Below are positions 1-12,183 of a DNA stretch of 12,183 nucleotides, piece by piece (position 1 is the first letter of the stretch; each line of letters begins with the position of its first letter). The notes under the pieces were generated by a model. That model was not told the DNA's origin. It saw only the letters and a list, made by a program, of their open reading frames with translations, and did no database searches. A program made the position numbers and the translations under genes. This DNA comes from Rickettsiales bacterium (GTDB lineage Bacteria > Pseudomonadota > Alphaproteobacteria > Rs-D84): the NCBI GenBank assembly GCA_031278055.1, contig JAITLD010000002.1:1-12183 (forward strand), given 5' to 3'.

Positions 1-126
1 ATTCCCGCCTACGCGGGAATGACAAAAACCTGGCGTTTTTTGTAAAAAAGTGTATGGAACAAAACTTAGCAGAGTTTTTTTTGACAAACAACAAAGTTGG
101 TTGTCTTTCCCTCGCAGGCGGGAATA
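1..126. repeat. Dispersed GCGGGAAT palindrome, two copies, one degenerate
   Basis: Positions 1-20 are a perfect inverted repeat (ATTCCCGC, 4-base loop, GCGGGAAT) followed by GACAAAAA. A second, imperfect copy lies at 107-125 in the order TTCCC, spacer, GGCGGGAA. Between them are T-rich tracts and an imperfect hairpin at 83-105 (GACAAACAAC, AAA, GTTGGTTGTC). Palindromes of this ATTCCCGC/GCGGGAAT type are common dispersed intergenic repeats in proteobacteria. I see no gene here. The left copy runs off the window edge, so the full element cannot be delimited. Confidence 0.6.
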
Positions 127-130
127 GGGC

Positions 131-190
131 TTGAGAGTTCAGAGTTAAGAAAGATTAATAATTTGAGAACTCATAACTCTGAATTCTTAA
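131..190. repeat. Gene-less inverted pair of GAGTTNN heptamer arrays
   Basis: Two heptamers, GAGTTCA and GAGTTAA (135-148), face three inverted heptamers at 166-186 (minus-strand reading GAATTCA, GAGTTAT, GAGTTCT), about 17 bases apart. The innermost 14 positions pair 12 of 14 in register. The same heptamer family bounds the four-helix-bundle gene at 5853-6295, but here nothing is encoded between the arms. It lies about 20 bases past the end of the minus-strand operon, so the transcript could fold into a 3' hairpin. No U-run follows it, so I do not call it a terminator. Confidence 0.75.
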
Positions 191-211
191 TGTAAATTGT
201 CGTGGGCCAAA

Positions 212-796
212 TCATTCTATGCAACAGTTTACGGATTTTTTCACCCATGCGCCAAGACTGGAAAGCAGACCGCTTTTTCTCGTTTCCGTTTTTTCAGGAA
301 CATCCGACGACGACGCCTTTTCGCCAATCCATTCGCGTAAATGATTGTCGATAGCCTCGTCTTTCCGCACTTTCGACAAATCAATCAGATTCATGTTGAT
401 TCCCCAAAATAGCGAATACAATTCATACGCCTTGCCGAACAAATCGTATGCGTCCGGCTTTTTCCCCGCGCCAAGCGCCTTGGTCCCGACTTCCATCAAC
501 CGCATGGACGCCGCCAACAGATGTTTTGATATGCACCAAACTTCCCCCGTTTCCGCAGTGGATTTTTTTACAATCCTTTCCATCAATTCTTTGCGCATTT
601 CCCGCACCGCGTTTATCAAATCATAAAATCCAGGCTTGCCCGTTTTTCCGCCGGAAAAGAAAAAATGCTCTTCCAATGAAATCAAGTTCATCAGCGCAAT
701 CGACAAATCCTGATCCGACGACAAATCCAGCGGATTCGCCTTTTTCGCCGCGTCCGTCTTTGCAATCAATTCTTCAAGCGTCAATTTTTTTGCCAT
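212..796 (-). CDS. Conserved-looking helical hypothetical protein
   Basis: A 194-residue soluble protein of unknown function, the last gene of the minus-strand block. It has no signal peptide or membrane segment. Residues 25-75 (core DLSIALMNLISLEEHFFF, then GKTGKPG and an EMRKELMERI helix) and 90-150 look all-helical. The C-terminal 40 residues are polar and probably flexible, ending KKSVNCCIE. The ATG at 796 is preceded by AAGGA at about the usual spacing, the same ribosome site as the upstream gene, and the gap between the two genes is 12 bases. Co-expression with the membrane protein upstream is likely. I have an impression of similar helical proteins, also next to CxxC membrane proteins, in candidate-phyla (Patescibacteria) genomes, but cannot confirm it. 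No function is claimed. Confidence 0.8.
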   Translation of the reverse strand: MAKKLTLEELIAKTDAAKKANPLDLSSDQDLSIALMNLISLEEHFFFSGGKTGKPGFYDLINAVREMRKELMERIVKKSTAETGEVWCISKHLLAASMRLMEVGTKALGAGKKPDAYDLFGKAYELYSLFWGINMNLIDLSKVRKDEAIDNHLREWIGEKASSSDVPEKTETRKSGLLSSLGAWVKKSVNCCIE

Positions 797-808
797 ACCG
801 ATTCCTTT

Positions 809-1300
809 TTAATATACTATCAGCGCGAATATTCCCGATATAGCCAGCAAAACGGCCATAGGAACAATCACTTTCTGAAACTTAAAGCGCGATTTTCCGC
901 CATTGGCCGCAATCGATTTGTTCAGCTGAATCTCTGTAATCCAAACAGCGGCAGTGCCAACGACCGCGCCGACCAAAAATCTGTCGAATATCCACAGCCA
1001 GCGAACATAATCGACGAAATAATACACTCCGAATAACAGCGCGTAATAAACCGCAAATACCGCCGTATACCACCACCCGCTCGTTATGTTTCGCCTTTTC
1101 AACCATCTTAAAGTCCAAAATACCAAAAGCAAGGTGAGCGCGCCGGCCCACACGCCAGTAATCACATCGTCAACTCCCAACAAACGCGCGGCCTCCAATC
1201 CCGCGGCAATGCCGACGGTGCAAACGGCGCACGGGGCAATCGCATGAACGGCGGATGTGAAAAGCCCTGAAACGAGAGACAAAAAGTAAATCTTTTTCAT
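809..1300 (-). CDS. Polytopic membrane protein with N-terminal CxxC
   Basis: A 163-residue integral membrane protein of unknown function. Residues 1-20 form a signal-like hydrophobic start ending SAVHA. The next segment carries the motif PCAVCTVGIAAGLEAARLLG, a CxxC at about residues 24-27 that would sit near the outer face of the inner membrane. Further hydrophobic helices lie at about 47-66, 75-97, 103-122 and 143-162. The CxxC suggests a thiol or metal role, but no thioredoxin or DsbB/DsbD signature is complete. Start ATG 1300 has AAAGGAA just upstream and begins 11 bases after the rsmH stop. The next gene follows after 12 bases, so this is an operon member. The paired CxxC membrane protein and helical hypothetical may be a small functional unit. 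This is inference. Confidence 0.82.
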   Translation of the reverse strand: MKKIYFLSLVSGLFTSAVHAIAPCAVCTVGIAAGLEAARLLGVDDVITGVWAGALTLLLVFWTLRWLKRRNITSGWWYTAVFAVYYALLFGVYYFVDYVRWLWIFDRFLVGAVVGTAAVWITEIQLNKSIAANGGKSRFKFQKVIVPMAVLLAISGIFALIVY

Positions 1301-1311
1301 TTTTATTCCTT

Positions 1312-2430
1312 TTATGCGATATTACTAATTTTCCGAACGGCGCGCAAGTGAGAACTTCGCGCCCGGGGATTTTTTTCCATCTCCACCGCGTCCGGACGGA
1401 AAGTTTTAAGAGAAATAAAATCGCCCCCCCCTTCCTTCTTCGCGGCATTCGATATTTCTTCGCAAGAAACCGGCGACGGTATATGCGGGTCGCCGACACG
1501 CGCCGTCCATTCGCGGAAAATATTTTTGACCAAACGATCCTCTATCGAATGAAATGTCACGCAGGCACAAATGCCGCCGGACGGAAGCAGGGCGGGGACT
1601 TCGTTCAACGCGCGCTCGATTTCCCCCAATTCGTCATTCACGGCAATGCGCAATGCCTGAAACACAGGCGCGACATCTTTCGGATTGGAAATCAAATCTT
1701 TTAATTGAAAAGTTGTTCGGGGAAGAGCGGATTTTATTTTACGCGCAAGTCCCGTCGCGTTTTTCATATCGCCGTAATCGCGCAGAATTTCGGCGATTTG
1801 TCCCATGGATAATTGTTCTATCAATTCGGCGGCCGATCCCCCCCCTCGGCCGCTTCGCGGCCACTCCCCCCCAATTGGGGGGGAGATGTCAGACGGGGCA
1901 GCTTTGCGACCACTTCCCCCAATTGGGGGGGATATGTCAGACGGGGTAGCTTTGCGACCTCCTCCCCCAATTGGGGGGGAGATGTCAGACGGGGTAGCTT
2001 TGCGACCACTCCCCCCAATTGGGTGGGAGATGTCAGATGGGGCAGACATTCTCATATCCAGCGGTGCGTCAAAACGCCATGAAAATCCCCTATCCGGCGT
2101 GTCGATTTGCATGGATGAAATGCCGAGGTCAAAAACTATATCTGTGATATGGGGCATAGGACATGAAACATGAGATACGAAATATGAGATATGGGAAAAA
2201 GGGGCGTTTATAAAAATAAAATCATCGCCGTATTGTTTTCTCAATTCTTCGGCAAACGGGGTGACAGACGGGTCGCGGTCGAACGCAATAACTTTCGCGC
2301 CGCGTCCCAAAAACGCACGCGAATATCCGCCCGCGCCGAATGTGGCGTCAATAACTACTCTGCCCCTCACATCGCCAAAGGTTTCCAAAACTTTATCCAA
2401 TAAAACCGGAATATGCTCACTCAATTTCAA
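1312..2430 (-). CDS. rsmH: 16S rRNA m4C1402 methyltransferase RsmH with repeat insertion
   Basis: RsmH (MraW) N4-methylates C1402 of 16S rRNA using S-adenosylmethionine. Recognisable features in order are EHIPVLLDKVLE at the N-terminus, the SAM loop DATFGAGGYSRAFL (28-41), DLGISSMQID (101-110), RGFSWR...PLDMRM (114-128), FHSIEDRLVKNIF and the C-terminal NPRARSSHLRAVRKI. The protein is 372 residues against about 310 usual. The excess is a repeat-encoded stretch at about residues 129-198, between DMRM and SAAELI, which are separated by only a few residues in typical RsmH. The start is TTG at 2430: an in-frame TAA lies just upstream, GGGGA precedes it, and no ATG occurs before EHIPVL. It overlaps the dnaE end by 14 bases, so translation is probably coupled. 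Placement behind dnaE instead of in the dcw cluster (mraZ-rsmH-ftsL) is unusual. Confidence 0.95.
   Translation of the reverse strand: MKLSEHIPVLLDKVLETFGDVRGRVVIDATFGAGGYSRAFLGRGAKVIAFDRDPSVTPFAEELRKQYGDDFIFINAPFSHISYFVSHVSCPMPHITDIVFDLGISSMQIDTPDRGFSWRFDAPLDMRMSAPSDISHPIGGSGRKATPSDISPPIGGGGRKATPSDISPPIGGSGRKAAPSDISPPIGGEWPRSGRGGGSAAELIEQLSMGQIAEILRDYGDMKNATGLARKIKSALPRTTFQLKDLISNPKDVAPVFQALRIAVNDELGEIERALNEVPALLPSGGICACVTFHSIEDRLVKNIFREWTARVGDPHIPSPVSCEEISNAAKKEGGGDFISLKTFRPDAVEMEKNPRARSSHLRAVRKISNIA
1837..2054 (-). repeat. Four 48-bp tandem repeats inside rsmH
   Basis: Repeat units begin at 1861, 1910, 1958 and 2006 (plus-strand coordinates), spaced 49, 48 and 48 bases. Each contains the palindrome CCCCCAATTGGGGG followed by a segment such as ATGTCAGACGGGG and GCTTTGCGACC. 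A fifth degenerate half-unit with the hairpin GGCCGCTTCGCGGCC sits at about 1845-1863. In the RsmH frame each unit encodes a 16-residue repeat of the form PSDISPPIGGSGRKAT. Two plus-strand frames and two minus-strand frames remain open across nearly all of the array, so a unit could be tolerated in several frames and both orientations. Units differ by few substitutions, which suggests recent expansion. Confidence 0.93.
2149..2197. repeat. Degenerate period-7 tract (ATGARAY type) inside rsmH
   Basis: Seven consecutive heptamers on the plus strand: ATGGGGC, ATAGGAC, ATGAAAC, ATGAGAT, ACGAAAT, ATGAGAT, ATGGGAA. In RsmH they encode a pseudo-repeat, SHISYFV then SHVSCPM, at about residues 79-92, replacing a variable loop before the DLGISS motif without changing length much. 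Seven bases times three gives a seven-residue period, so the reading frame survives. Confidence 0.7.
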
Positions 2431-5400
2431 CTTTTATCCCCAGGCCCGACAGACGGACCATCGTATCCGCCGTCATCCTGACAGTGCGCGGAAGCGCCAG
2501 AACCGCCTCTTTTCCGCCATCTATTATCTTCATCGTTATCCTGGATTGTCCGTTCGGCAAAGCGTCGATAATTTTTTTCAGGTCGGACAGCTTCGTCCTG
2601 TCGACGACCGTCAGCGCCAGTTTCCTCGCCACGCCGGCCGCCCATTCGGAAATCGGAAAGACTGCGTCCACAAACAGCGATACGCTGTTGTCTTCGCGCA
2701 CCGCCGTCCGTCCGGCAAGAACAACCGCGCCGTGTTCGCTGAGCGTGCTTTCCAAATCAAAAACCGTATCGCCAAACGCAACCGAATCAATGTTCGCGTT
2801 GCCGTCGGTTGCTTTGATTACCATCATCGGCTTGCCAGTTTTAGTCGTGCGCCTGTTGTATCCTGTGACATTCACAGCCAAACGAACCGATTTCCTATCG
2901 ACTTGATTCGCAAGCTCGGAGCATTTTAGCAATCTTTCCGATTCAATCAGTTTTTTATACGGGTCAAGCGGCGAAGATTGCAAAGCAAAGCCAAGCGCCT
3001 CGGTTTCGTTCGCCAGCACTTCGTTGAATCCCCACGCGGACGACACCGCCAATCGCTTTGCCAGGCTGTCATCCGTCGTGTCGTCCGCCGTGGTGTTGTC
3101 GAACAAAGATAAAGTCTGTCCGCCGTTCTTTTGGGCGGCGGCATATATCAATATTGTATCGGCATTGTAATAAAGTTTCGCTCGGTCCGGACAAAACGAA
3201 TCCAAAACACCCGCCTTGATGAAGTTTTCGAGAATCCGCTTGTTTATTACTCCGCCGGTCCGCTTCGCGAAATCGGTCAAGTTCCTGAATTTTCCGCCGT
3301 CGTTTCTTATTTGTATAATTTGTCCGGTGGCGGCCGCGCCCACCCCCTTTATCGCCGCCAATCCGAACACAATCTTTCCATTCTTTACGGAAAACAAAGA
3401 TTCCGATTCGTTTATGTCGGGCGGCATGACATCGATGCCGAAATTATTCCGCGCGTCCCTGACATCCTCGGCAATATAATCCGTGTCGTTCAATCTTGAC
3501 GACATATCGGCTGCTATAAATTCCGCCGAATAATTTGCTTTTAACCACGCGCATTGATTCGCGACAAGCGCATAGCACAAGGCATGCGCCTTGTTGAACG
3601 CATATTCCGCGAATTTCTCGAACTGGTTAAACAATTCGCCCGCCTGCTGTTCGGTCAAAGTATCGTTCCTTTCACATCCCTCTATAAATTTAACGCGCAT
3701 TTCCTCCATAATCGATTTTATCTTCTTTCCCATCGCCTTGCGCAAAGTGTCCGATTCGCCGCGCGTGAATCCCGCAAGGGTTCGGGATAACTGCATTACC
3801 TGTTCCTGATAAACCAAAATCCCATACGTTTCCTTTAATATATCTTCGGCCAAAGGATGAGGATAGGATACCTTTTCGTCCCCGTGCATGCGGGCGATAT
3901 AGTTGGGAATGAACGCCGCGGGCCCCGGACGATTCAAGGCGTTCAGGGCGACTATATTTGCGAAATACGTAGGCCTCATCGATTGGAGATACCGCTGGAC
4001 ATGCGGGGCATCAAATTGGAACACTCCCAGCGTCCATCCGCGCTGCCAAATCGTCGAGTATGTTTTATCGTCATCCAGCGGGATTAGTTCCGGATTGATA
4101 TCAACGCCGTGATTCTCGCGAATCATTTTTATCGCGCGTTTTAATATTGTTAGCGTTTCCAAAAGCAAGAAATCAAATTTCATCAATCCGCTGGATTCCA
4201 GATAATGCCCGTCAAATTGCGCGGACGGCAAATTGTTTGACGGGTCGCGATAAATCGGCGCTATTTCAATCGTCGGACGATCGCCGATAACAAAACCGCA
4301 GGCATGCTGGCCTATGTTGCGATATAACCCCTCAATCGCGCAGGCGATTTCCACGACTTTCGTCATTTCCGGATCATCGACCAGCTCGTGCTTTATAGCA
4401 TAGTCGTTCAATGCGGCGGATAAATTTTTCGCGTCCGACGGAATTAATTTCGAAAATCTGTCGGATTTTGAATAGGGCATTCCATAAACGCGGCCGACAT
4501 CGCGAATCGCGCCGCGCGCCTGCAAGCTGCCGAAAGTAATTATGCGACAAATATGGTCGGCCCCGTATTTTTTCTGAATATAATCGATGATTTTATCGAT
4601 TTCCGCCGGCTCGAAATCAATATCAAAGTCAGGCATAGACACGCGGTCGGGATTTAAAAAGCGTTCGAACAAAAGCCCCCATTTCAACGGGTCGGCCTTG
4701 GTAATCCCAAGCGACCACGAGACAACCGACCCTGCGCCGCTTCCGCGCCCGGGGCCGACCCAGATATTATGACCCTCGGCCCATTTGATATAGTCGGCGA
4801 CTATCAGAAAATACCCGGGAAACCCCATTCTGATTATCGTTTCCAATTCGAAATCCGCCTGATCGAAATATTTTTTGGAATCAGTTATCTTGTTTTCCTC
4901 AATGCGTTTTTCAAGCCCCGCCATTGTCTCGGCCCGCAATATTTGGCATTCCTCGTCGAAATTATCGGCGAATTTGGGTAATAGGGGCTTTTCGCGAACG
5001 TTCACCATGAACGCGCACCGCCGCGCGATTACGGCGGTATTTTCAATCGCCTCCGGCAAGTCGGAAAAAAGTTCGGCCATCTCGTCCGGACTTTTGAAAT
5101 ATTGTTCCACATTCGCGCGCGGACGATTGTCGGAAATGATTTTAGTCTGGCCCAGAATGCAGTGCAACGCGTCCGTGGCCTCGTAATTCTCGGGCCCGGC
5201 AAAGCAGACGTCGTTTGTGGCGACAATCGGAATATTTTTATCGCGCGCGAGATTCAAGAATTCCCGCTCGGTATTAATCTGTTCGTCCAAACCGAATCTG
5301 GACAGCTCCATATAAAATCTATCGCCAAAAATCGATAAAAATCTGTCTGCAAGGTCCGCGGCAAGGCGTTCCTGTTTTTCCAAAACAACGCGGCCAATCG

Positions 5401-5854
5401 GACCGTTGTGCCCACCGGATAGGCAAATCAGCCCGCCCGAATGCGCCGCCAGTTCGTCCAGCGAGACATGCGCGCCCAAATGCCATTCGTCGGGGCGCAT
5501 GTACATTATTTCCGACAATTTGCACAAATTCAAATATCCGTCGTGATTCTGCACCAGCAATACAATTTGCGACATTTGTTCCGTCCGCAGAATCTTCGGG
5601 TCGATATTGTGATGATTCAAAGTAAGCGACACTCCTATAATCGGCTGGATTCCCGCGCCCGGGGCCTTGTCCGATAATTCGGCCGCCGCGGTCATAAGGT
5701 TATTGTCCGTAATCGCGACCGCCGACATTCCGTAATTCTTGCAAAATGAGATAACATTCGGCCTGTCCGGTTCTTTTTTCGGCGCGGAAATCAGAATCGA
5801 CCCGAATCCGACGGAATATTGGGAGTGAACGCGAAGATGAACAAAAGATTTCAT
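2417..5854 (-). CDS. dnaE: DNA polymerase III subunit alpha
   Basis: The replicative polymerase catalytic subunit, 1145 residues (E. coli DnaE is 1160). The N-terminal PHP domain starts FVHLRVHSQYSV (4-15). The polymerase palm has GPGRGSGAGS (367-376) and PDFDIDF (408-414), giving catalytic Asp411 and Asp413. The third catalytic Asp is D561 in LMKFDFL. RIITFGSLQARGAIRDVGRV and the finger region follow, then a tandem helix-hairpin-helix region (IKGVGAAATGQI) and an OB fold near residues 980-1040. The start at 5854 fits the family N-terminus exactly. The ATG shares its bases with the upstream TGA stop (ATGA), and no Shine-Dalgarno sequence is visible, because the 35 bases upstream are heptamer repeat. 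Translation therefore probably depends on termination of the four-helix gene. The family FLGL after the third Asp reads FLLL here. Confidence 0.97.
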   Translation of the reverse strand: MKSFVHLRVHSQYSVGFGSILISAPKKEPDRPNVISFCKNYGMSAVAITDNNLMTAAAELSDKAPGAGIQPIIGVSLTLNHHNIDPKILRTEQMSQIVLLVQNHDGYLNLCKLSEIMYMRPDEWHLGAHVSLDELAAHSGGLICLSGGHNGPIGRVVLEKQERLAADLADRFLSIFGDRFYMELSRFGLDEQINTEREFLNLARDKNIPIVATNDVCFAGPENYEATDALHCILGQTKIISDNRPRANVEQYFKSPDEMAELFSDLPEAIENTAVIARRCAFMVNVREKPLLPKFADNFDEECQILRAETMAGLEKRIEENKITDSKKYFDQADFELETIIRMGFPGYFLIVADYIKWAEGHNIWVGPGRGSGAGSVVSWSLGITKADPLKWGLLFERFLNPDRVSMPDFDIDFEPAEIDKIIDYIQKKYGADHICRIITFGSLQARGAIRDVGRVYGMPYSKSDRFSKLIPSDAKNLSAALNDYAIKHELVDDPEMTKVVEIACAIEGLYRNIGQHACGFVIGDRPTIEIAPIYRDPSNNLPSAQFDGHYLESSGLMKFDFLLLETLTILKRAIKMIRENHGVDINPELIPLDDDKTYSTIWQRGWTLGVFQFDAPHVQRYLQSMRPTYFANIVALNALNRPGPAAFIPNYIARMHGDEKVSYPHPLAEDILKETYGILVYQEQVMQLSRTLAGFTRGESDTLRKAMGKKIKSIMEEMRVKFIEGCERNDTLTEQQAGELFNQFEKFAEYAFNKAHALCYALVANQCAWLKANYSAEFIAADMSSRLNDTDYIAEDVRDARNNFGIDVMPPDINESESLFSVKNGKIVFGLAAIKGVGAAATGQIIQIRNDGGKFRNLTDFAKRTGGVINKRILENFIKAGVLDSFCPDRAKLYYNADTILIYAAAQKNGGQTLSLFDNTTADDTTDDSLAKRLAVSSAWGFNEVLANETEALGFALQSSPLDPYKKLIESERLLKCSELANQVDRKSVRLAVNVTGYNRRTTKTGKPMMVIKATDGNANIDSVAFGDTVFDLESTLSEHGAVVLAGRTAVREDNSVSLFVDAVFPISEWAAGVARKLALTVVDRTKLSDLKKIIDALPNGQSRITMKIIDGGKEAVLALPRTVRMTADTMVRLSGLGIKVEIE

Positions 5855-6249
5855 GAGTTAAGAGTTACGAGTTCAGAGTTATGAGTTAATTTTTTAGCTG
5901 CTGCATTTTTTTTCGAAGTCTTTAATATTGATACAAGTATAGCAATTATCTCATCGCATTCATCAATAATTGTTTTAGAACTTTGTTCAGTCAGAAAATC
6001 AGTCAATTTTAATAGTTTCGGCCAATACAAAGTTTCACGCGCCTCTTTTAATGAAACTGAAAGCTTTGCAATAAAATCTTTATTGCTTTGGGCAGATATT
6101 GCCTCGTTTGCATTTGCCCCAATGCTTGTTCCAGAACGGAGAACTTGCCTAGATAAGACCCTTTCGCCTTTTTTTAACAGATATTTATAAAGGTTTGTAA
6201 CACGAACCGCGAAAAGAAAAGATTTTTTTGCAATAACGCTGTCTGTCAT
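5851..6249 (-). CDS. Four-helix-bundle protein, 23S rRNA intervening-sequence type
   Basis: A 132-residue member of the four-helix-bundle (S23/IVP) family. Family features seen: VTNLYKYLLKKGERVLSRQVLRSGTSIGANANEAISAQSNKDFIAKLSVSLKEARET in segments (VLSRQVLRSGTSIGANANEA; KDFIAKLSVSLKEARETLYW), then LTDFLTEQ and a final helix DECDEIIAILVSILKT. Members are known from intervening sequences inside 23S rRNA genes and as stand-alone genes; the molecular role is unsettled. The ATG at 6249 is preferred because GAAGG precedes it and the family N-terminus begins near VIAKKSFLFAVRVTNL; an upstream ATG at 6312 would lie inside secA and read through repeat. The last 13 residues (about LTHNSELVTLNS) are encoded by the heptamer array, and the TGA stop overlaps the dnaE ATG. 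The gene is visibly more AT-rich than secA and dnaE, which suggests transfer. Confidence 0.9.
   Translation of the reverse strand: MTDSVIAKKSFLFAVRVTNLYKYLLKKGERVLSRQVLRSGTSIGANANEAISAQSNKDFIAKLSVSLKEARETLYWPKLLKLTDFLTEQSSKTIIDECDEIIAILVSILKTSKKNAAAKKLTHNSELVTLNS
5855..5889. repeat. GAGTTNN heptamer array, dnaE side
   Basis: Five uninterrupted heptamers: GAGTTAA, GAGTTAC, GAGTTCA, GAGTTAT, GAGTTAA. On the minus strand they encode the C-terminus of the four-helix protein and occupy the place where the dnaE ribosome-binding site would be. Confidence 0.92.
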
Positions 6250-6260
6250 CTCACATGCCT

Positions 6261-6295
6261 TCAACTCGTAACTCTGAACTCTTAACCTTGAACTT
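6261..6295. repeat. Inverted heptamer array, secA side
   Basis: Read on the minus strand it is AAGTTCA, AGGTTAA, GAGTTCA, GAGTTAC, GAGTTGA. It contains the SecA stop codon and lies just upstream of the GAAGG ribosome site of the four-helix gene. Confidence 0.9.
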
Positions 6296-8777
6296 TTATA
6301 TTTACCCTGCACAGATACATCAAACTGTCGCGCTTGAATCCCAAAATCGCATTTCGAAATAATTCCAACGCCTCCTGCTTGTATTCATACAAGGGATTTT
6401 TCTGGGCATATCCGCGCAGGCCTATCCCCGTTTGCAAATAATCCATCAACGCCAGATGGCGCCGCCAGTTCGAATCCAGCGACTGCAAGGCGCATTGCCG
6501 CATTGCCGTCCGAAATAATTCATCACCGTATTCCTGGCGCCGCTGTTCGAATCGGGCGGACGCCAGACGCGTCAGAATCCCGAATGCCTTGCGTTCGTCG
6601 ATATTTTCGTCATGCCGCCAATTGTCCAAATCGGTTATGTCGATTCCGAATGTCATCTTCATCGCGTCGTTGATTCCCCGCGTGTTCCAATCTTCGCGCA
6701 TTGAATGCTCAGGTATATTCGCCTCGCAAACCTGCTCGATGATATCGCCGGTTATCTCTGAAAAGAAGCCTGTCAAATCCTCAGAATGCATTAATTCATC
6801 GCGCTGCCTGTAAACCACCTTTCGTTGGTCGTTCATGACGTCGTCGTATTTCAAAAGTTCCTTGCGCGATTCGAAATACCGCGCCTCGACCCGCTTTTGC
6901 GCCTTTTCAAGCGCGCGGGTGATCCACGGATGGGTGATTGCCTCGTTCGGTTTCAAACCCAAAGTCGTCAGCATTCCCTGCAAACGCTCGGCGCCAAAAA
7001 TCCGCATTAAATCATCGTCCAGAGAAAGAAAAAATTTTGAATCGCCGGGGTCGCCCTGACGCCCCGACCGGCCGCGCAGCTGGTTATCGATACGTCGCGA
7101 TTCATGCCGTTCCGTCCCGACAACATACAACCCGCCAGCGTCCAGAACCAACTTTTTCTGATTCTCTATGCGTTCGTATATTTCCTTTTTCTGTTTCTCA
7201 AAGTCATCGATTTTTAATTCTTCATCTTTAATTCTCAATTCGTCGATTAAAAATTCCGCATTTCCCCCCAGTTTTATATCCGTTCCGCGGCCCGCCATGT
7301 TCGTCGCGATGGTAAGGGCGCCCGGCGCGCCGGCCTGCGCGATTATGTGCGCCTCTTTCTCGTGATGTTTCGCATTCAAAACCGCAGGGGTTATCTTTAA
7401 TTCTTTTTCGACTATTCTCGCCAATTCCTCGGATTTTTCAATCGTGGTGGTCCCGACAAGCACCGGTTGCCCGCGCTCCATGCAATCGCGTATCTGCGCC
7501 AGAATCGCAACAAACTTTTCGTCCTTGTTCCGATAAATCTCGTCCTGATGGTCATTTCGAACAACCGGCCGATTCGTCGGAATCGCCACGACGCGCAATT
7601 TATAAATCTCGTCGAATTCGGCCGCCTCGGTCATCGCGGTTCCTGTCATTCCGGCCAATGTCGGATACAAACGAAACAGATTTTGATATGAAATCGATGA
7701 TACGGTCTGGTTTTCGGATTGGATTTCGACATGCTCTTTGGCCTCAATCGCCTGATGTAGCCCGCGCGACAGACGGCGGCCGGTCATGACGCGTCCGGTG
7801 AATTCATCGACCAGCAGAACCTCGCCGTCGCGCACCACATAATTGACATTTTTCTGATAAAGATGATGTGCCAAAAGCGATTGCTGAATATGCATTACCA
7901 ATTGCGAGTTTTCAGGCGCATAGAGGTTGTCCCCTTGTAAAATGCCGCTGTCCGAAAGGATTTTAGTAATATGCTCGACACCCGTATCGGTCAGAGTGAC
8001 ATGACGATCCTTTTCATCCTTTTTATAATCCTCCGAAGCAAGCTTTCGAATGGAGGCGTCGATTTTATTGTAAAGTTCGCTCGAATCTTCGGCCGGACCG
8101 GAAATAATCAGCGGAGTTCTCGCCTCGTCTATCAAAATACTGTCCACCTCGTCGACAATCGCGTAGAAAAACGGCCGCTGAACCAATTGGCCGGAATCAA
8201 ACTTCATATTGTCGCGCAAATAATCGAATCCGACCTCGCTGTTCGTGGCATAGGTAATATCGCAGGCATAAGCCGCGCGCCGCTGGTCGTCATCCATATC
8301 ATGCTGAATCACGCCGACGCTCATTCCCAAAAATTCGTAGATACACCCCATCCATTCGCTGTCGCGCAGGGCCAGGTAATCATTCACGGTAATCAAGTGC
8401 GCCCCTTTGCCATGCAAAGCCTTCAAATACAGGGCCAGCGTCGCGACCAGTGTTTTCCCTTCGCCCGTTTTCATCTCGCAAATCATGCCGTCATTCAAAA
8501 CCATTCCGCCCAAAAGCTGAACGTTGAAATGCCGCATGCCAAGCGCGCGGCTCGACGCCTCGCGCACGGCGGCAAAGACATCGGGCAATATGTCCGACTC
8601 GTTCGCGCCCGCCGCCAATTTATCGCGGAAAATGACGCTCTGGCCGCGCAATTCGCCATCTGTCATGGCATGATACCGCGGTTCTAAATCATTGATAATG
8701 GAAACTGTCTTGTCATACGATTTTATCAGACGGTCATTGGCGGAGCCAATCAGTTTTTTAAGCAATCCTGCAATCAT
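6282..8777 (-). CDS. secA: Protein translocase ATPase SecA, C-terminal tail missing
   Basis: The motor of the Sec pathway; it drives preproteins through SecYEG using ATP. It has 831 residues against about 900 for E. coli. Walker A MKTGEGKT lies at 102-109, DEVDSILIDEAR at 209-220, LAGMTGTAMTEAAEF near 375-388, TNMAGRGTDIKLGGN at 492-506, and RRIDNQLRGRSGRQGDPG at 561-578. The helical scaffold follows, ending LMYLCRVNIKVQG. The usual flexible linker and the zinc-binding CxCxSGxxxxxCHG tail are absent. The stop codon and final VQG codons lie in the heptamer array, so truncation by the insertion is plausible, although tail-less SecA also occurs naturally in some lineages. The ATG at 8777 has AAGGGA 8 bases upstream. 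Residues 511-524 (IDELRIKDEELKID) are encoded by a period-7 tract. Confidence 0.96.
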   Translation of the reverse strand: MIAGLLKKLIGSANDRLIKSYDKTVSIINDLEPRYHAMTDGELRGQSVIFRDKLAAGANESDILPDVFAAVREASSRALGMRHFNVQLLGGMVLNDGMICEMKTGEGKTLVATLALYLKALHGKGAHLITVNDYLALRDSEWMGCIYEFLGMSVGVIQHDMDDDQRRAAYACDITYATNSEVGFDYLRDNMKFDSGQLVQRPFFYAIVDEVDSILIDEARTPLIISGPAEDSSELYNKIDASIRKLASEDYKKDEKDRHVTLTDTGVEHITKILSDSGILQGDNLYAPENSQLVMHIQQSLLAHHLYQKNVNYVVRDGEVLLVDEFTGRVMTGRRLSRGLHQAIEAKEHVEIQSENQTVSSISYQNLFRLYPTLAGMTGTAMTEAAEFDEIYKLRVVAIPTNRPVVRNDHQDEIYRNKDEKFVAILAQIRDCMERGQPVLVGTTTIEKSEELARIVEKELKITPAVLNAKHHEKEAHIIAQAGAPGALTIATNMAGRGTDIKLGGNAEFLIDELRIKDEELKIDDFEKQKKEIYERIENQKKLVLDAGGLYVVGTERHESRRIDNQLRGRSGRQGDPGDSKFFLSLDDDLMRIFGAERLQGMLTTLGLKPNEAITHPWITRALEKAQKRVEARYFESRKELLKYDDVMNDQRKVVYRQRDELMHSEDLTGFFSEITGDIIEQVCEANIPEHSMREDWNTRGINDAMKMTFGIDITDLDNWRHDENIDERKAFGILTRLASARFEQRRQEYGDELFRTAMRQCALQSLDSNWRRHLALMDYLQTGIGLRGYAQKNPLYEYKQEALELFRNAILGFKRDSLMYLCRVNIKVQG
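7205..7246. repeat. Degenerate period-7 tract inside secA
   Basis: Plus-strand heptamers CATCGAT, TTTTAAT, TCTTCAT, CTTTAAT, TCTCAAT, TCGTCGA. On the coding strand they read as ATTRARA-like units and give the pseudo-repeat ELRIKDE, ELKIDDF in the variable connector after the MAGRGTD motif. Alphaproteobacterial SecA has a comparable-length connector here, so this may be replacement or drift, not extra length. Confidence 0.55.
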
Positions 8778-8923
8778 GAAAAATTCCCTTTTTTACTATT
8801 GAATTATTAATTGATATTTTTTCATTCGCGGATTATTTGGCAATGCGCGCGCCCCCGAATTGGATTTATAATTAATAATTAACGATTTATAATTATATAA
8901 TAGATTCCGCCTGAAATTACAAG
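8778..8923. other. AT-rich divergent secA/rnpB intergenic region
   Basis: This gap must contain the secA promoter, but I see no convincing -35/-10 pair on the minus strand. It holds a GC island (GCGCGCGCCCCC, about 8846-8856) and a period-7 AT tract at 8859-8900 (ATTGGAT, TTATAAT, TAATAAT, TAACGAT, TTATAAT, TATATAA). A similar shorter tract (ATTGAAT, TATTAAT, TGATATT) lies at about 8799-8819. The secA ribosome site AAGGGA is at the left edge. Confidence 0.5.
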
Positions 8924-8951
8924 TTGAAAAATGAAAATTATCGCCTATAAT
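8924..8951 (+). promoter_or_regulatory. Promoter of rnpB
   Basis: TTGAAA at 8924-8929, a 16-base spacer and a consensus TATAAT at 8946-8951. The predicted start is about 8957-8958, where the P1 helix of the RNase P RNA begins. Confidence 0.85.
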
Positions 8952-8956
8952 CCCAG

Positions 8957-9247
8957 CGCAGACGCTTGCGATGTAGCGGGGCGGAAACGCCTCGAGGAAA
9001 GTCCGGACTGCACAAGACAGGATAGCGGTTAACGGCCGCCGGGGGTGACCCTAGGATTAGAGCAACAGAAACGAACCACGGAAAGCGGTGGATGAAACGG
9101 GCAATCTCTATCCGCAGCAACCCCAAGTAGGTTCCCACAATGCCGGGTCTTGACGGCGGGAACGGGTAGGGGGCTTGACGCCCGCGGAAACGCGAAGCGC
9201 AGATTAATTACATCGCACGATAGAATCCGGCTTATAGAGCGTCTGCT
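8957..9247 (+). ncRNA. rnpB: RNase P RNA, class A, shortened specificity domain
   Basis: The catalytic RNA of RNase P, which removes tRNA 5' leaders. P1 pairs GCAGACGCT (8958-8966) with AGCGTCTGC (9238-9246). The P4 strand and conserved region I, GAGGAAAGTCCGGAC, is at 8994-9008. Its partner near the 3' end reads AGAATCCGGCTTAT, and the P4 pair A-U replaces the usual G-C on both strands, a compensatory change that supports function. ACAGAAACGAACC (9065-9077) and GCAGCAA...AAGTAGG (9114-9130) also match the family. Length is about 291 nt against about 377 in E. coli. Between GATGAAA and GCAGCAA there are only about 16 bases where E. coli has about 60, so P12-P14 and GGUAAGAGC are missing. Confidence 0.95.
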
Positions 9248-9250
9248 AAA

Positions 9251-9276
9251 AAATCCGCCGAAAGGCGGATTTTTTT
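9251..9276 (+). terminator. Intrinsic terminator of rnpB
   Basis: Perfect stem AAATCCGCC/GGCGGATTT with a GAAA tetraloop, continuing into a run of T. It begins four bases after the end of P1. Confidence 0.93.
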
Positions 9277-9314
9277 CAAAACGTCCGGCGCATGACGCAT
9301 GGAGATAACATAAA

Positions 9315-9335
9315 ATGCTGGATTTCATAATCTAA
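9315..9335 (+). other. Possible six-residue upstream peptide (MLDFII)
   Basis: ATG at 9315 is preceded by GGAGA (9301-9305) at reasonable spacing and encodes six residues before TAA at 9333-9335, four bases before the ATG at 9340. The frame differs from the main gene. It could couple or tune translation of the kinase gene, or be chance. Confidence 0.3.
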
Positions 9336-9339
9336 ATTT

Positions 9340-10296
9340 ATGTATATTAAAATAGAAAATAAACCTATGACAGAATTTAATCCTGACTTACAAAAAGCGA
9401 AACTGCTTCTAAAAAAATTGGCCGCGGACAAAATATTACCGTTCACACCGAGCGCGGTCGCACCATACGCGGAAGGCGGAGAAACCCTGTCATTACGCGT
9501 CAGCGTAAAGGATGGATCCGAATACGCGGTATTGTTTCCAAGGTCCTCTCGTTCGTTAAAATCAAAATCTGATGAAAAAAATATGCTTGATTTTATAAAT
9601 TCGTACGGCGTGGGCACGACAAGCGGGGTGGAAATCCCAACACTAATCCATGTAAATTGTAAAGAAATGCCATTCTTTTACATGAAAGGTTTTAAGGGAG
9701 AAGTATTATATCCATGGAATTACGATAATTTGTCGGATGAACAAAAGCGTCTTTTATCGGCTGACCTTGCGCGATTCCTTTATGCAATGCACTCCATTCC
9801 GGTCGCGGAAGCCGCAGGAATTTTGCCAGTGCGCGGCCTGCGCGCAAAAGATGATTTATTAAAACGGGGCAGACTGAAAGACATAGAATATTTATCTGAA
9901 ATTCTGCGGGCAAATATTCCGGACGGCGTATTGCAACAGCTTGATAAATCAATAGAAAGTTTTAATTATTCCAATGTTGTTTCGCACGGGGATTTACACG
10001 GCCGTAATCTGACCGTGGACAAATCAAAAACAAAAATACTAAACGGTATATTCGATTTCGGCATGGCGGCGGTCGACAATCGGGCTGTTGATTTTTATAA
10101 ATTATCGGTCATTCACAGAGAGTTGATGCGAAGAACCGTGGGGGAATATAATCCTTTATCGTCAGAACAAATCGAAGTCGCAGATGTGGATTTTATTTAT
10201 CTGGCTTTATTTGGCAGTCGAATAAAACAAGAGCCAATCGACGGCATTATAAAAGAATCGTTGAGAAACTTTTCGGATGATTGGGGTAATAACTAG
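9340..10296 (+). CDS. APH-family phosphotransferase
   Basis: A 318-residue kinase-like protein of the aminoglycoside phosphotransferase/choline kinase fold. The catalytic (Brenner) loop is VVSHGDLHGRN (about 213-223) and the metal-binding motif is GIFDFGMAAVDNRAVDF (about 236-252). The N-terminal lobe has YAVLFPRS and a conserved-looking Glu in SDEKNML. The substrate is unknown: candidates in this fold include aminoglycosides, choline, homoserine, fructosamine and sugars, and nothing here decides between them. It stands alone between the rnpB terminator and a convergent gene, with no antibiotic-resistance context. The start is uncertain: ATG 9340 and ATG 9367 both lack a good Shine-Dalgarno, and a seven-codon upstream reading frame at 9315 has a better one. 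Confidence 0.88.
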   Translation: MYIKIENKPMTEFNPDLQKAKLLLKKLAADKILPFTPSAVAPYAEGGETLSLRVSVKDGSEYAVLFPRSSRSLKSKSDEKNMLDFINSYGVGTTSGVEIPTLIHVNCKEMPFFYMKGFKGEVLYPWNYDNLSDEQKRLLSADLARFLYAMHSIPVAEAAGILPVRGLRAKDDLLKRGRLKDIEYLSEILRANIPDGVLQQLDKSIESFNYSNVVSHGDLHGRNLTVDKSKTKILNGIFDFGMAAVDNRAVDFYKLSVIHRELMRRTVGEYNPLSSEQIEVADVDFIYLALFGSRIKQEPIDGIIKESLRNFSDDWGNN

Positions 10297-10399
10297 AAAA
10301 AGAGATTCCGCGCCATAAAAAAATTTCGGCCAATCGCCGCCGCTCGATTGGAATAAAATTAATAAAGAGGAATATTTATGAAAGGCATAGGGCAAGTAT
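10297..10399 (+). other. Intergenic with a ribosome site and seven-codon frame
   Basis: After the kinase stop there is a CCAATCG/CGATTGG stem with an 8-base loop (about 10330-10351), then AGAGGAA and ATG at 10378. The ATG opens a seven-codon frame, MKGIGQV, that ends TAA at 10399-10401, directly on the terminator. This may be the leftover 5' end of a deleted gene, or a leader. Confidence 0.35.
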
Positions 10400-10425
10400 A
10401 AAATGGCGGCAAAGCCGCCATTTTT
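10399..10425. terminator. Bidirectional intrinsic terminator
   Basis: Perfect palindrome AAAATGGCGGC, loop AAA, GCCGCCATTTT, with T-runs on both outer sides. It serves the plus-strand side (kinase and the small frame) and the minus-strand outer-membrane gene, whose stop is about 33 bases away. Confidence 0.9.
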
Positions 10426-10457
10426 GTCCAATATAGTTAGTATTGTTTTGTTTTTTT

Positions 10458-11438
10458 TTAGAACTGCGCGTTCAAGCGAACACCCAATTCAGCCTTGACA
10501 TCCGTCGAGTTCTGCGAACCGTCTTGACCGTTATCAAACGTGTATTCTCCATACAGCGCAATCTGAACGGTGTCGGACAATTCATTGGCAACAGACAACG
10601 AAACGGCGAATTCGTTGAATCCGTCTTTCAAATCCTTGTTGTTGAAGCCTGGGATAACTTTCGATGTCAAAAGAGCAGAATCGGATTTTGCGCTGTCAAC
10701 GACATGATTTGAATGATGTTTCCATGCAAAGCCAAATCCCGACGTCCATTTCGGCGCAAAATCATAAGACCATTTCGTTCCGATATTCCAATCGGTATAG
10801 GCCTTGATTTTTGCAACTGCATCACCAACAAGCAAAGGATTGAATGTAGAGTCAACATTTATCTTACTATTATCATTCGCAAAAAAATGTCCGACTTCGG
10901 CAAACACAGAGCCAGTCAATTTATCCCACGTCTTTCCGGCGCGGAATCCGCCCCAAACGCCATATTGTCCTGTTCCGTAGTTATCAAAGGTAAATGAAGT
11001 AACAGTAAGGGAATGAAGTGTAGCTCTACCGGTCATTTTAGAAAGACCGCCGATGTGCGCGTCCGCATAGACATCAAGCACAAACGGCTGCGTTTCCGCC
11101 AAAATGCGATAGATTGCGCCCAGCCGTCCCTGATGCAATCCTTTACGGTTTATATCGCCGTCATAGGTGTATCCGAACGAGCCCTGAATGGCCAGTCTAT
11201 CGGTAATTCCATAACCCAAATCTTCGGCAAGCCGCCAGATTGGGAATTCAGTCGCGCCATCGTGATTTTTCAACTTTTGCGCGGGCGTGTCGTCGGCAAT
11301 TTTATACATCACCCCGACGCCTGTCTTGGAATAAACGTCGCCCGCTTTCGGCAGATACAACGGATTTTCCAAGTTCGCGGCGAATGCGGGCGTCGCAAGG
11401 ACGGCCAATGCAACCGCTGTTTTCATGGTCTTTTTCAT
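10458..11438 (-). CDS. Probable outer-membrane beta-barrel protein
   Basis: A 326-residue exported protein. A classic signal peptide, MKKTMKTAVALAVLATPAFA, precedes ANLENP, so cleavage after AFA (residue 20) is expected. The mature part has alternating hydrophobic/polar strands rich in aromatic and Gly residues (for example LAIQGSFGYTYDGD; QYGVWGGFRAGKTWD; WTSGFGFAWKHHSNH; VQIALYGEYTFDNG) and ends LGVRLNAQF with a terminal Phe, as in BAM-assembled barrels. No cysteine is seen in the mature region. I do not recognise a specific transporter or adhesin family. The ATG at 11438 has AAGGAG six bases upstream. The gene is monocistronic, with a promoter near 11558-11585 and the shared terminator at 10399-10425. 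Barrel fold is inference from pattern. Confidence 0.85.
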   Translation of the reverse strand: MKKTMKTAVALAVLATPAFAANLENPLYLPKAGDVYSKTGVGVMYKIADDTPAQKLKNHDGATEFPIWRLAEDLGYGITDRLAIQGSFGYTYDGDINRKGLHQGRLGAIYRILAETQPFVLDVYADAHIGGLSKMTGRATLHSLTVTSFTFDNYGTGQYGVWGGFRAGKTWDKLTGSVFAEVGHFFANDNSKINVDSTFNPLLVGDAVAKIKAYTDWNIGTKWSYDFAPKWTSGFGFAWKHHSNHVVDSAKSDSALLTSKVIPGFNNKDLKDGFNEFAVSLSVANELSDTVQIALYGEYTFDNGQDGSQNSTDVKAELGVRLNAQF

Positions 11439-11461
11439 CTTTCACTCCTTATAGTTATTGA

Positions 11462-11531
11462 TGAAACTCCGCCGCCCACTAAAATGGCCACAGCGGGGCC
11501 GCGCTCCACGCCGCCGGTTGAACCGCAACAA
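11462..11531 (-). other. GC-rich leader segment of the outer-membrane mRNA
   Basis: This block is much more GC-rich than the AT-rich DNA around it and lies inside the predicted 5' leader. It contains short complementary stretches (CGGTTCAACCG; GGCC facing GGCC around CCGCTGT) that could fold, placed before the AAGGAG site. It matches no riboswitch I recognise. One minus-strand frame stays open through it (GGVERGPAVAILVGGG) but has no start with a ribosome site. Confidence 0.4.
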
Positions 11532-11557
11532 CATGTTTCTCTGAGAACGGCAAATCG

Positions 11558-11585
11558 ACTATACAAAATTTGAGAATGGAATCAA
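11558..11585 (-). promoter_or_regulatory. Promoter of the outer-membrane gene
   Basis: On the minus strand, TTGATT (11580-11585), a 16-base spacer and TATAGT (11558-11563). The predicted start near 11551 gives a leader of roughly 110 nt. The -35 box lies 5 bases from the left end of the deleted IS element. Confidence 0.7.
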
Positions 11586-11590
11586 ATGAT

Positions 11591-11939
11591 TTTTTGGGTC
11601 ATGACTAGTTTAGATAGATAAATCTGCCCGTAAGGGTATGATTTAACTATGAAAAACAAGTATTTTTTTGGGTCTCATATTTCTATTAAGAAATTCAGAC
11701 ATTTTTTGCAATTATTTTACATGGATTTAACTACGAATCGAATAGAGGGCTTTTGGGGTTGGACGAGAAGCAGACTTGCAAAGTTCAAGGGGATAAAGTG
11801 GGATAATATAGAGTCGCATATAGCCGAAACAGTATGGCGTTTTAATCATAGACAAGATGATATTTATAAAATACTATTGAAAGAGTTCAGAACAGATAAG
11901 ATGGGTCTATAAAATCCGTTTCTGGTCTTGACCCAAAAA
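11591..11939 (+). mobile_element. Internally deleted IS1595-type element with intact ends
   Basis: Terminal inverted repeats of 18 bp, TTTTTGGGTCATGACTAG at 11591-11608 and its complement at 11922-11939, match at 16 of 18 positions. The 349-bp interior holds only a shortened transposase frame. No clear 8-bp target duplication is seen immediately outside the ends. With both ends retained it could be moved by a full-length relative elsewhere, as a MITE-like derivative. Confidence 0.85.
11649..11912 (+). pseudogene. IS1595-family transposase, internal deletion
   Basis: An 87-residue remnant. Residues 1-28 (MKNKYFFGSHISIKKFRHFLQLFYMDLT) resemble the N-terminus of IS1016/ISH4-like IS1595 transposases. 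Residues 30-87 (RIEGFWGWTRSRLAKFKGI; ETVWRFNHRQDDIYKILLKEF) are the family C-terminus with the final catalytic Glu in IEGFW and the RFNHR motif. The zinc ribbon and both catalytic Asp residues, which normally lie between, are missing. Full-length relatives have more than 200 residues. The frame is preserved across the junction near TTNRI, so it still reads as one protein but cannot be an active transposase. Confidence 0.85.
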
Positions 11940-11944
11940 TTAAC

Positions 11945-11972
11945 TTGCAAAAATGGCGGCAATCTGTATAAT
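11945..11972 (+). promoter_or_regulatory. Promoter of the tRNA pair
   Basis: TTGCAA at 11945-11950, a 16-base spacer and a consensus TATAAT at 11967-11972, 13 bases before the tRNA-Ala 5' end. It has the same spacing and -10 as the rnpB promoter. It lies just 5 bases outside the right end of the deleted IS element. Confidence 0.85.
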
Positions 11973-11985
11973 CCTGTCTGATTTC

Positions 11986-12061
11986 GGGGTCGTAGCTCAG
12001 CTGATAGAGCGCTGCGTTCGCATCGTAGAGGTCGTGGGTTTGAGTCCCATCGGCTCCACCA
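11986..12061 (+). tRNA. tRNA-Ala (anticodon CGC)
   Basis: 76 nt including encoded CCA. The acceptor GGGGTCG pairs with CGGCTCC and has the alanine identity pair G3-U70. The anticodon arm is CTGCG, loop TTCGCAT, CGTAG, so the anticodon is CGC, reading GCG. The D-loop is AGCTGATA (A at position 19) and the T-loop is TTTGAGT (U at position 56), a covarying replacement of the near-universal G19-C56 elbow pair. Confidence 0.95.
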
Positions 12062-12100
12062 AACAAATACCTTTCCGCGAGAGGGGTAAAATATAATTTC

Positions 12101-12176
12101 GGAAGCGTAGCTCAGTCGGTAGAGCAAGTGACTCTTAATCATTAGGTCCGGGGTTCGAATCCCCGCGCTTCCACCA
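12101..12176 (+). tRNA. tRNA-Lys (anticodon CUU)
   Basis: 76 nt including encoded CCA. The acceptor GGAAGCG pairs with CGCTTCC, the anticodon loop is CTCTTAA (anticodon CTT, reading AAG), and the T-arm is CGGGG, TTCGAAT, CCCCG. G19 and C56 are the normal bases. It is probably co-transcribed with tRNA-Ala, 39 bases upstream. The T-run starting at 12180 is cut by the window end. Confidence 0.96.
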
Positions 12177-12183
12177 AGCTTTT

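Follow-up and report, generated by a model that had tools for sequence, protein, structure and literature searches.

We analysed a 12,183-nucleotide stretch of DNA from a Rickettsiales bacterium (contig JAITLD010000002.1 of assembly GCA_031278055.1, positions 1 to 12,183; hereafter the window). Its minus strand carries, in order, secA, a 132-residue gene of the four-helix-bundle family PF05635, and dnaE, and the middle gene is framed by two arrays of GAGTTNN heptamers that are inverted with respect to each other. Comparison with other genomes shows that this architecture of inverted arrays around a PF05635 gene recurs across bacteria, and the element has the look of a type of mobile DNA that has gone unnoticed. 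The features of the window are as follows, with the arms written in gene sense.

5851..6249, minus strand: PF05635/TIGR02436 four-helix-bundle (IVP/S23) gene, 132 amino acids from ATG, the sole open frame between the arms
6263..6298, minus strand: 5' arm, about five heptamers (AAGTTCA AGGTTAA GAGTTCA GAGTTAC GAGTT), holding the secA stop codon
5855..5889, minus strand: 3' arm (TTAACTC ATAACTC TGAACTC GTAACTC TTAACTC), the inverted counterpart of the 5' arm, directly next to dnaE
6282..8777, minus strand: secA, upstream neighbour
2417..5854, minus strand: dnaE, downstream neighbour
128..186, unstranded: second copy of this repeat family, an inverted pair of GAGTTNN arrays lacking a gene (arms 128-146 and 168-186, loop of 21 bp)

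The encoded protein matched the PF05635 profile with 81.9 bits and TIGR02436 with 95 bits, and had no family in PADLOC or PHROGs at E ≤ 0.01. Apart from this gene no Pfam-matched frame was found between the arms, and neither a transposase nor a reverse transcriptase lies inside the element. Alignment of the two arms (5856-5887 and 6263-6294, 32 nt each, with 375 nt between them) gave 27 of 32 complementary positions (84%), and Tandem Repeats Finder reported a period of 7 with 5.0 copies at 5855-5889 and a period-14 array at 6263-6298. The element is tightly fitted to its neighbours, the secA stop codon (6282-6284) falling within the upstream arm and the TGA of the PF05635 gene (5851-5853) overlapping the ATG of dnaE (5852-5854). 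A first-pass annotation, made from the letters of the window, had described inverted heptamer arrays framing one gene between secA and dnaE, and this description was confirmed; the annotation had overlooked the gene-less pair at 128-146/168-186 and the genome-wide dispersal of the array described below.

To place the locus in context, PF05635 was searched in the host genome (G000) and 59 relatives, with matches in 19 of the 60 genomes, host counted. All 68 PF05635 loci found in the host's family (f1) were examined, together with a tree-wide set (the best 80 of 578 loci, gathered by one conserved motif from named genomes across many phyla; 79 usable) and 29 further proteobacterial loci. Many genomes of f1, and of the genus g42 discussed below, are incomplete (the host is 83% complete), and neighbouring genes were defined by open frames rather than by curated genes. 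The arms were compared with 533 same-size placements elsewhere in the same loci, a control in which 139 of 140 loci were usable, the flank of one being too short. An arm score of at least 15 was obtained at 86 of the 139 PF05635 loci across bacteria and at 1 of the 533 control placements, and a lag-7 score of at least 10 at 104 of 139 and 48 of 533, respectively, with no enrichment at other lags. Within f1, 63 of 68 loci scored at least 13, compared with 6 of 533 control placements. The score depends on the 220-bp flanks, the choice of gene edge and ungapped matching, as seen for L028, which received 15.0 or 10.5 in two scorings. Of the five f1 loci below 13 (L004, L022, L028, L195, and L205), L028 carries period-7 arrays on both sides and L004 on the 3' side, so the arm rule is slightly stronger than the score shows. 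A locus's own arms exceeded the 99% level of mismatched arm pairs at 25 of the 31 near loci, at 41 of the 79 in the tree-wide set and at 15 of the 29 from Proteobacteria.

The arrays also share their period and polarity. Among the 135 of 176 loci with an arm score of at least 13, to which our mismatch, period and stop-codon statistics are confined, the best period was 7 in 119 arm pairs and the G-rich strand ran inward in 122 loci. A dominant period of 7 was present on at least one side of 64 of the 79 tree-wide loci and on both sides of 42. A plasmid search returned 16 PF05635 records (15 cyanobacterial and one from Gemmatirosa), and the four examined were all armed, with scores of 26, 26, 18.5, and 18.5. 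One armed S23 gene, whose unit is GGGTGTA, is common to two Calothrix brevissima plasmids of one strain (L171 and L172), where it adjoins a gene of the phage-integrase family. A chance association of arms and gene is rejected by the placement control (86/139 against 1/533), and the second outcome that the first-pass annotation named as fatal to its proposal, a lack of any link between such arrays and the family elsewhere, did not hold, since period-7 arrays accompany the gene family elsewhere.

The array unit differs from locus to locus, and the 1953 pairs of f1 elements were used to ask what it follows. Both neighbouring genes were common to 23 pairs, one neighbour was common to 13 pairs, which were set aside, and 1917 pairs had none in common. 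In pairs from different sites, the unit was common to 5 of 11 with proteins at least 65% identical, 6 of 152 with 55-65% identity, and 13 of 1754 below 55%; the corresponding counts for pairs from the same site were 3 of 3, 1 of 6, and 0 of 14. Because unit sharing tracks protein identity at the same and at different sites, the unit is inherited and moves with the gene, and the idea that the array is a property of the site was rejected. The absence of a common unit between same-site elements below 55% identity indicates that some junctions have been entered repeatedly by unrelated elements. Copying of the unit from the target, an idea raised by the resemblance of GTGAATG to one empty nuoC-nuoD junction (L219), was set aside because the unit tracks the element lineage.

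Occupied and empty sites were then compared. Among the host and its relatives, 30 loci had a secA match, and dnaE adjoined secA in 17 of them. Three of these 17 junctions hold elements, each with a different unit (G000, G001, and G009), 11 are bare (9-54 bp), one holds a short gene-less inverted remnant (G003), and two hold other spacers. Presence of the gene at 3 of 17 junctions runs counter to the possibility, raised by the first-pass annotation as fatal to its proposal, that close relatives all carry it there. In G008 and G017 no dnaE was found beside secA, which is followed there by gene-less inverted arrays; with that of G003, these are the inverted remnants behind secA at loci L143, L146, and L150, all seen by eye.

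In genus g42, a query joining the nuoC and nuoD flanks matched contiguously in 50 of 81 genomes, while 28 gave a split or partial match and three gave none; the split genomes G253, G271, G272, G281, and G319 were left out. Among 23 filled nuoC-nuoD junctions examined, 18 contain arms and gene, with the unit GTAGTGA in 10, GTGAATG in seven and another unit in one (L128). The two main lineages are 59% identical to each other, and 92% and 74% identical within, so that one junction in one genus is occupied independently by two lineages with different units. The other five junctions (L271, L278, L287, L288, and L289, from five g42 genomes) hold unrelated small frames without arrays, which makes this junction a general insertion hot spot. 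At the right junctions of L284, L121, L128, and L102, inspection by eye at this one site indicated that the outer end of the element and the target form a small hairpin of GCC-NNN-GGC type. The one well-matched comparison was between a filled locus (L285) and an empty one (L228) from two g42 genomes with flanks 99.6% identical; in this pair the insert interrupts AAGCAGT|AGGGCGACCC, and no target sequence is duplicated or lost.

A second g42 site, between an acyl-CoA dehydrogenase gene and mmsB, is empty in 29 loci. The 23 distinct filled junctions examined there (split mmsB genomes were examined in part) comprise 17 full elements, four reduced copies (L296, with arms only, L300, L302, and L309) and two other inserts (L304 and L306). 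In L309 both arms have changed to the 8-bp unit GGGCAGTA, which is a direct view of the two arms altering together. Array copy number varies widely between species. Element and empty site thus differ by a clean insert between neighbouring genes, and the earlier proposal of a mobile cassette that includes the arrays is supported by the recurrence across bacteria, the empty sites and the tracking of the unit with element lineage.

The arrays are also dispersed without the gene. In the host, a search with three GAGTTNN units gave 111 + 118 matches at up to two mismatches, compared with 3 + 2 for the reversed pattern, and 160 compared with 0 at up to one mismatch. The search at up to one mismatch found no such arrays in the same-genus genomes G001-G004 (56-87% complete). 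A 215-kb portion of the host, consisting mostly of contigs picked for their hits, contained 45 arrays, which form 14 convergent pairs, 13 of the pairs being gene-less. Sampled stretches, from which all solo-array and gene-less-pair densities derive, were compared between genomes with and without the gene, counting arrays of any unit. Eight f1 genomes with the gene (565 kb) contained 190 solo lag-7 arrays (50-808 per Mb) and 32 inverted pairs, while nine genomes without it (eight from f1 and one from the same order; 583 kb) contained 17 solo arrays (0-200 per Mb) and no pair. Of the 32 gene-less pairs, 30 have the same polarity as complete elements, with the G-rich strand pointing inward. Among the 71 solo arrays of G006, 54 matched a resident element, compared with a mean of 4.2 and a best value of 19 for other genomes; the references for resident elements exclude the five f1 elements named above, which score below 12 here. 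In g42, GTAGGCA arrays were present in 11 of 12 genomes with an element at the mmsB site. Genomes with the gene thus also contain scattered gene-less inverted pairs, which in G006 mostly have the units of the elements resident there.

Further arrays lie within or beside other genes. An in-frame array in secA (window 7203-7247) encodes DELRIKDEELKIDD in a loop that is variable among relatives; in G017 (L146) the same loop reads ELTTNNEQLTT and is encoded by a CAACTAA-type array, the unit of that genome's own element (L029), and in G005 (L148) a similar peptide is found with the array eroded. Solo arrays thus seem to be tolerated inside genes. In rsmH (window 1848-2193), a period-7 array with the unit ATGAGAT (2170-2193) stands beside the peptide VSHVSCPMPH (2149-2178), and a 48-bp tandem repeat occupies 1848-2045. 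An AT-rich period-7 array (ATTAATA) lies beyond the secA start at 8864-8901, and the loops of the host GAGTT pairs hold a second array similar to ATTAATA and the palindrome ATTCCCGCGCAGGCGGGAAT.

Several known systems resemble the element in part; the papers cited here are represented by the portions of their text available to us. The intervening sequence (IVS) in the 23S rRNA of Coxiella carries (GACAGAT)3 before its open reading frame, has a 28-bp terminal stem that is cut by RNase III, and measures 428-444 nt (PMC4990558). The window element shares with it an S23/IVP frame, heptamers, complementary ends capable of a long stem, and a similar size (444 bp, 5855-6298), but lies between secA and dnaE rather than inside a 23S rRNA gene, the location that helps to define such sequences, and its relatives have units that vary by lineage and dispersed gene-less copies. 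Since the Coxiella element already has heptamers and a stem, the window element is of the same stock, and the kinship to rRNA intervening sequences stated in the first-pass annotation was right. No rRNA-located copy was found with two 23S motifs among 310 loci, a weak test given that the loci are short.

REPIN-RAYT systems (PMC3116915) likewise combine a gene beside a repeat, scattered gene-less inverted doublets and a repeat type specific to the gene; they differ in having a Y1 tyrosine transposase in place of the four-helix-bundle gene and a repetitive extragenic palindrome in place of the tandem heptamer array. As for driver-specific repeats, which characterize REPIN-RAYT systems, the arrays here flank the gene and their unit tracks its lineage, with solo arrays matching residents strongly only in G006. 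DNA transposons and miniature inverted-repeat transposable elements (MITEs) share the terminal inverted repeats; unlike them, the full copy lacks a transposase and, in the single pair L285/L228, a target-site duplication. Avd, the accessory protein of diversity-generating retroelements (4DWL), is said to share its fold with PF05635 (2GSC) (PMC10053308), but no reverse transcriptase was found in G000 at 83% completeness or inside the element.

Dispersed heptamers have been described elsewhere. For the heptamer repeats of Xanthomonas and Nostoc (PMC4692102), GGGAATC arrays number 186 and 183 per genome, with 70 and 75 inverted pairs, and the term "four helix" is absent from the main text of that paper. 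We found a PF05635 locus with GGGAATC arms (L140) in G213, a genome with 29 matches to GGGANTCGGGANTC and none to the reversed pattern; the published repeat suggests a kinship of this genome to Xanthomonas. The TAACTGA repeats of Beggiatoaceae are, like the window arrays, dispersed heptamers near start codons, but they are mostly direct, with one inverted set; their authors see no transfer mechanism and propose a regulatory role (PMC4679880), and neither "S23" nor "four helix" occurs in the text available. The available portions of PMC11270868 and PMC5524665 contain nothing on arrays. Among open-licence PMC papers, to the extent of their available text and with subscription papers and preprints outside the scope, none was found that ties heptamer arrays to a PF05635 gene, and in that scope the element is, as the first-pass annotation had it, undescribed.

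Taken together, these observations lead us to favor, with moderate confidence, a REPIN-like mobile DNA system in which the four-helix-bundle protein is the driver. The element consists of two inverted tandem arrays of a short unit (nearly always 7 bp, with the G-rich strand inward) around a single PF05635 gene, and the arrays would serve as both its ends and its recognition sites. The protein, a relative of 2rld, Xcc0516, and Avd, would bind the heptamer arrays of its own element, probably while these are single-stranded or in hairpin form during replication, and would be needed for the spread of the arrays in full and gene-less copies, with enzymes of the host or a factor acting in trans doing the cutting and copying. 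Slippage of units inside an arm, together with templating from one inverted arm to the other, could keep the arms matched while the unit drifts. By analogy with RAYT and its REPINs, a non-catalytic protein may thus stand in the place of RAYT.

A number of observations weigh against this interpretation. Transposition, the manner of movement and the part of the protein in it are what we infer rather than what was observed, and the difference between L285 and L228 fits precise excision as well as insertion. In the tree-wide set, 15 of 79 loci have no dominant period of 7 on either side and 38 of 79 are not above the 99% control. The dispersal data are uneven. Eight host contigs outside the listed hits contained one lag-7 array and no pair. 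GAGTTNN matches numbered 25 compared with 10 reversed in G009, whose element L191 has the unit GAGTTTA, and an uninformative 12 compared with 12 in G031. The match of solo arrays to a resident element was weak in G009, with 12 of 36 (best other genome 12), and in G008, with 9 of 36 (best other genome 8). G019, without the gene, has four solo arrays in 20 kb. The short inverted remnant beside secA in G003 (L143), a genome with no PF05635 gene found at 82% completeness, lay in a sampled stretch and was missed by the pair detector, so the count of zero pairs in gene-free genomes means none with full arrays. In g42, GTAGGCA arrays were also present in 8 of the 12 genomes that have no element at mmsB, although gene status was assessed at mmsB only.

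No partner enzyme for the protein was found. We know of no enzymatic step or catalytic motif for the four-helix-bundle fold. A Y1 transposase (PF01797) was found in 2 of the 19 gene-bearing genomes, with one of the two matches below the cut-off, and a resident Y1 transposase as general mover was rejected on this count. Reverse transcriptase (PF00078) was found in 10 of the 19 gene-bearing genomes and in 15 of the 41 that lack the gene; it is not required, though it may be weakly associated with the gene. Neither family was found in the host genome (83% complete). The PF05635 genes of g42 had median ratios of nonsynonymous to synonymous substitution (dN/dS) of 0.07 (129 pairs), 0.06 (41 pairs), and 0.09 (nine pairs), with a median dS of 0.5-0.8 and with L263 and L116, which are the same locus, both counted. 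The protein is thus under strong purifying selection, indicating that it is needed for something over long times, and that something could be a host function rather than mobility. The only PDB match of the protein was 2rld, which has five chains, and Xcc0516 of Xanthomonas campestris, a member of the same family, is described as assembled from five four-helix bundles (PMC3936711, title of its reference 48).

Some of these observations would suit an explanation in which the PF05635 gene is a passenger or a gene useful to the host, and the arrays are spread by unrelated machinery, as MITEs are by the machinery of a lost transposon. The purifying selection, the fold without, to our knowledge, a catalytic motif, the GTAGGCA arrays in genomes with an empty mmsB site, and the somewhat commoner reverse transcriptase in genomes with the gene all speak for it. 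It does not account for the tracking of the unit with protein lineage or of solo arrays and inverted pairs with gene presence in f1, and the arms hold this one gene family across phyla, though the loci were gathered by that gene, which would hide other cargo. We consider the passenger explanation unlikely, while giving it real weight.

Slightly lower still in our estimation is an element that acts at the RNA level, along the lines of the first-pass annotation, which had the arrays pair in the secA-dnaE mRNA and the element possibly excised from RNA. The arms would pair in the transcript, RNase III would cut the stem, removal from the mRNA would make the insert tolerable, and RNA pairing would keep the arms alike. 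The Coxiella IVS, with its heptamers, 28-bp stem and RNase III cutting (PMC4990558), is a precedent. The predicted RNA of the window folds with the arms paired as a closing stem (z = -2.1), as expected of such an inverted repeat, so cleavage in the transcript is possible. Both neighbours were found for 48 f1 elements; the upstream gene runs in the same direction in 41 of these, and its stop codon lies at most 15 bp from the arm in 29 of the 41. Selection for pairing in the transcript should favor G:U mismatches between the arms over A:C mismatches. In f1 alone G:U leads by 53 to 39 (p 0.17), but over the 135 loci there is no excess (108 G:U-type compared with 129 A:C-type), and the tree-wide set is biased the opposite way (45 compared with 74, p 0.01), so the arms show no selection for pairing. 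In addition, gene-less pairs are dispersed in DNA, intergenic arrays adjoin genes of every orientation (28 of 75 lie between convergent genes), and units are wholly different at one junction, a change that selection for pairing alone would slow. RNA pairing or excision as the purpose of the arms is therefore not supported.

Regulatory repeats are a far less probable explanation. Arrays beside start codons would act in translation or as terminator hairpins, as has been proposed for the TAACTGA repeats (PMC4679880). The arms do adjoin codons of this kind, with median distances from co-directional neighbours of 0 bp to the stop and 9.5 bp to the start codon, and the inward strands are rich in stop codons (901 compared with 569 ± 17 after shuffling). 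The unit is nevertheless free to alter completely at one junction, and close relatives differ in whether they have elements and gene-less pairs. The heptamers as an all-frame stop-codon device are at best part of the story, since AGT and CAG are enriched more than TAG. Replication slippage alone, by which heptamer arrays would arise anywhere and adjoin PF05635 by chance, is the least credible of all: it would suit the free variation of copy number between species, the solo arrays common in some genomes and the lag-7 arrays at 48 of 533 control placements, but it yields direct rather than matched inverted arrays, is contradicted by the placement control for inverted arms and the lack of enrichment at other lags, and does not fit the scarcity of solo arrays in sampled gene-free genomes.

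Returning to the REPIN-like system driven by the four-helix-bundle protein, a broader version of it can be put forward tentatively, as a possibility we hold at somewhat less than even chances. PF05635 proteins may drive, in a sequence-specific manner, a class of mobile DNA that extends across bacteria and has no recognised nuclease. Each lineage would recognise its own evolving array and spread full elements and gene-less pairs. Such drivers might explain much of the heptamer content of Xanthomonas, Nostoc, and other genomes, and 23S rRNA intervening sequences might simply be those copies that inserted into rRNA. PF05635 genes occur widely, and their annotation gives no function. If the broader proposal is true, the rRNA intervening sequences, the heptamer repeats and the role of S23-type proteins would become one testable question. 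A non-catalytic, probably pentameric protein would occupy the place of a transposase, and its fast-changing recognition word would suit the study of coevolution between protein and DNA.

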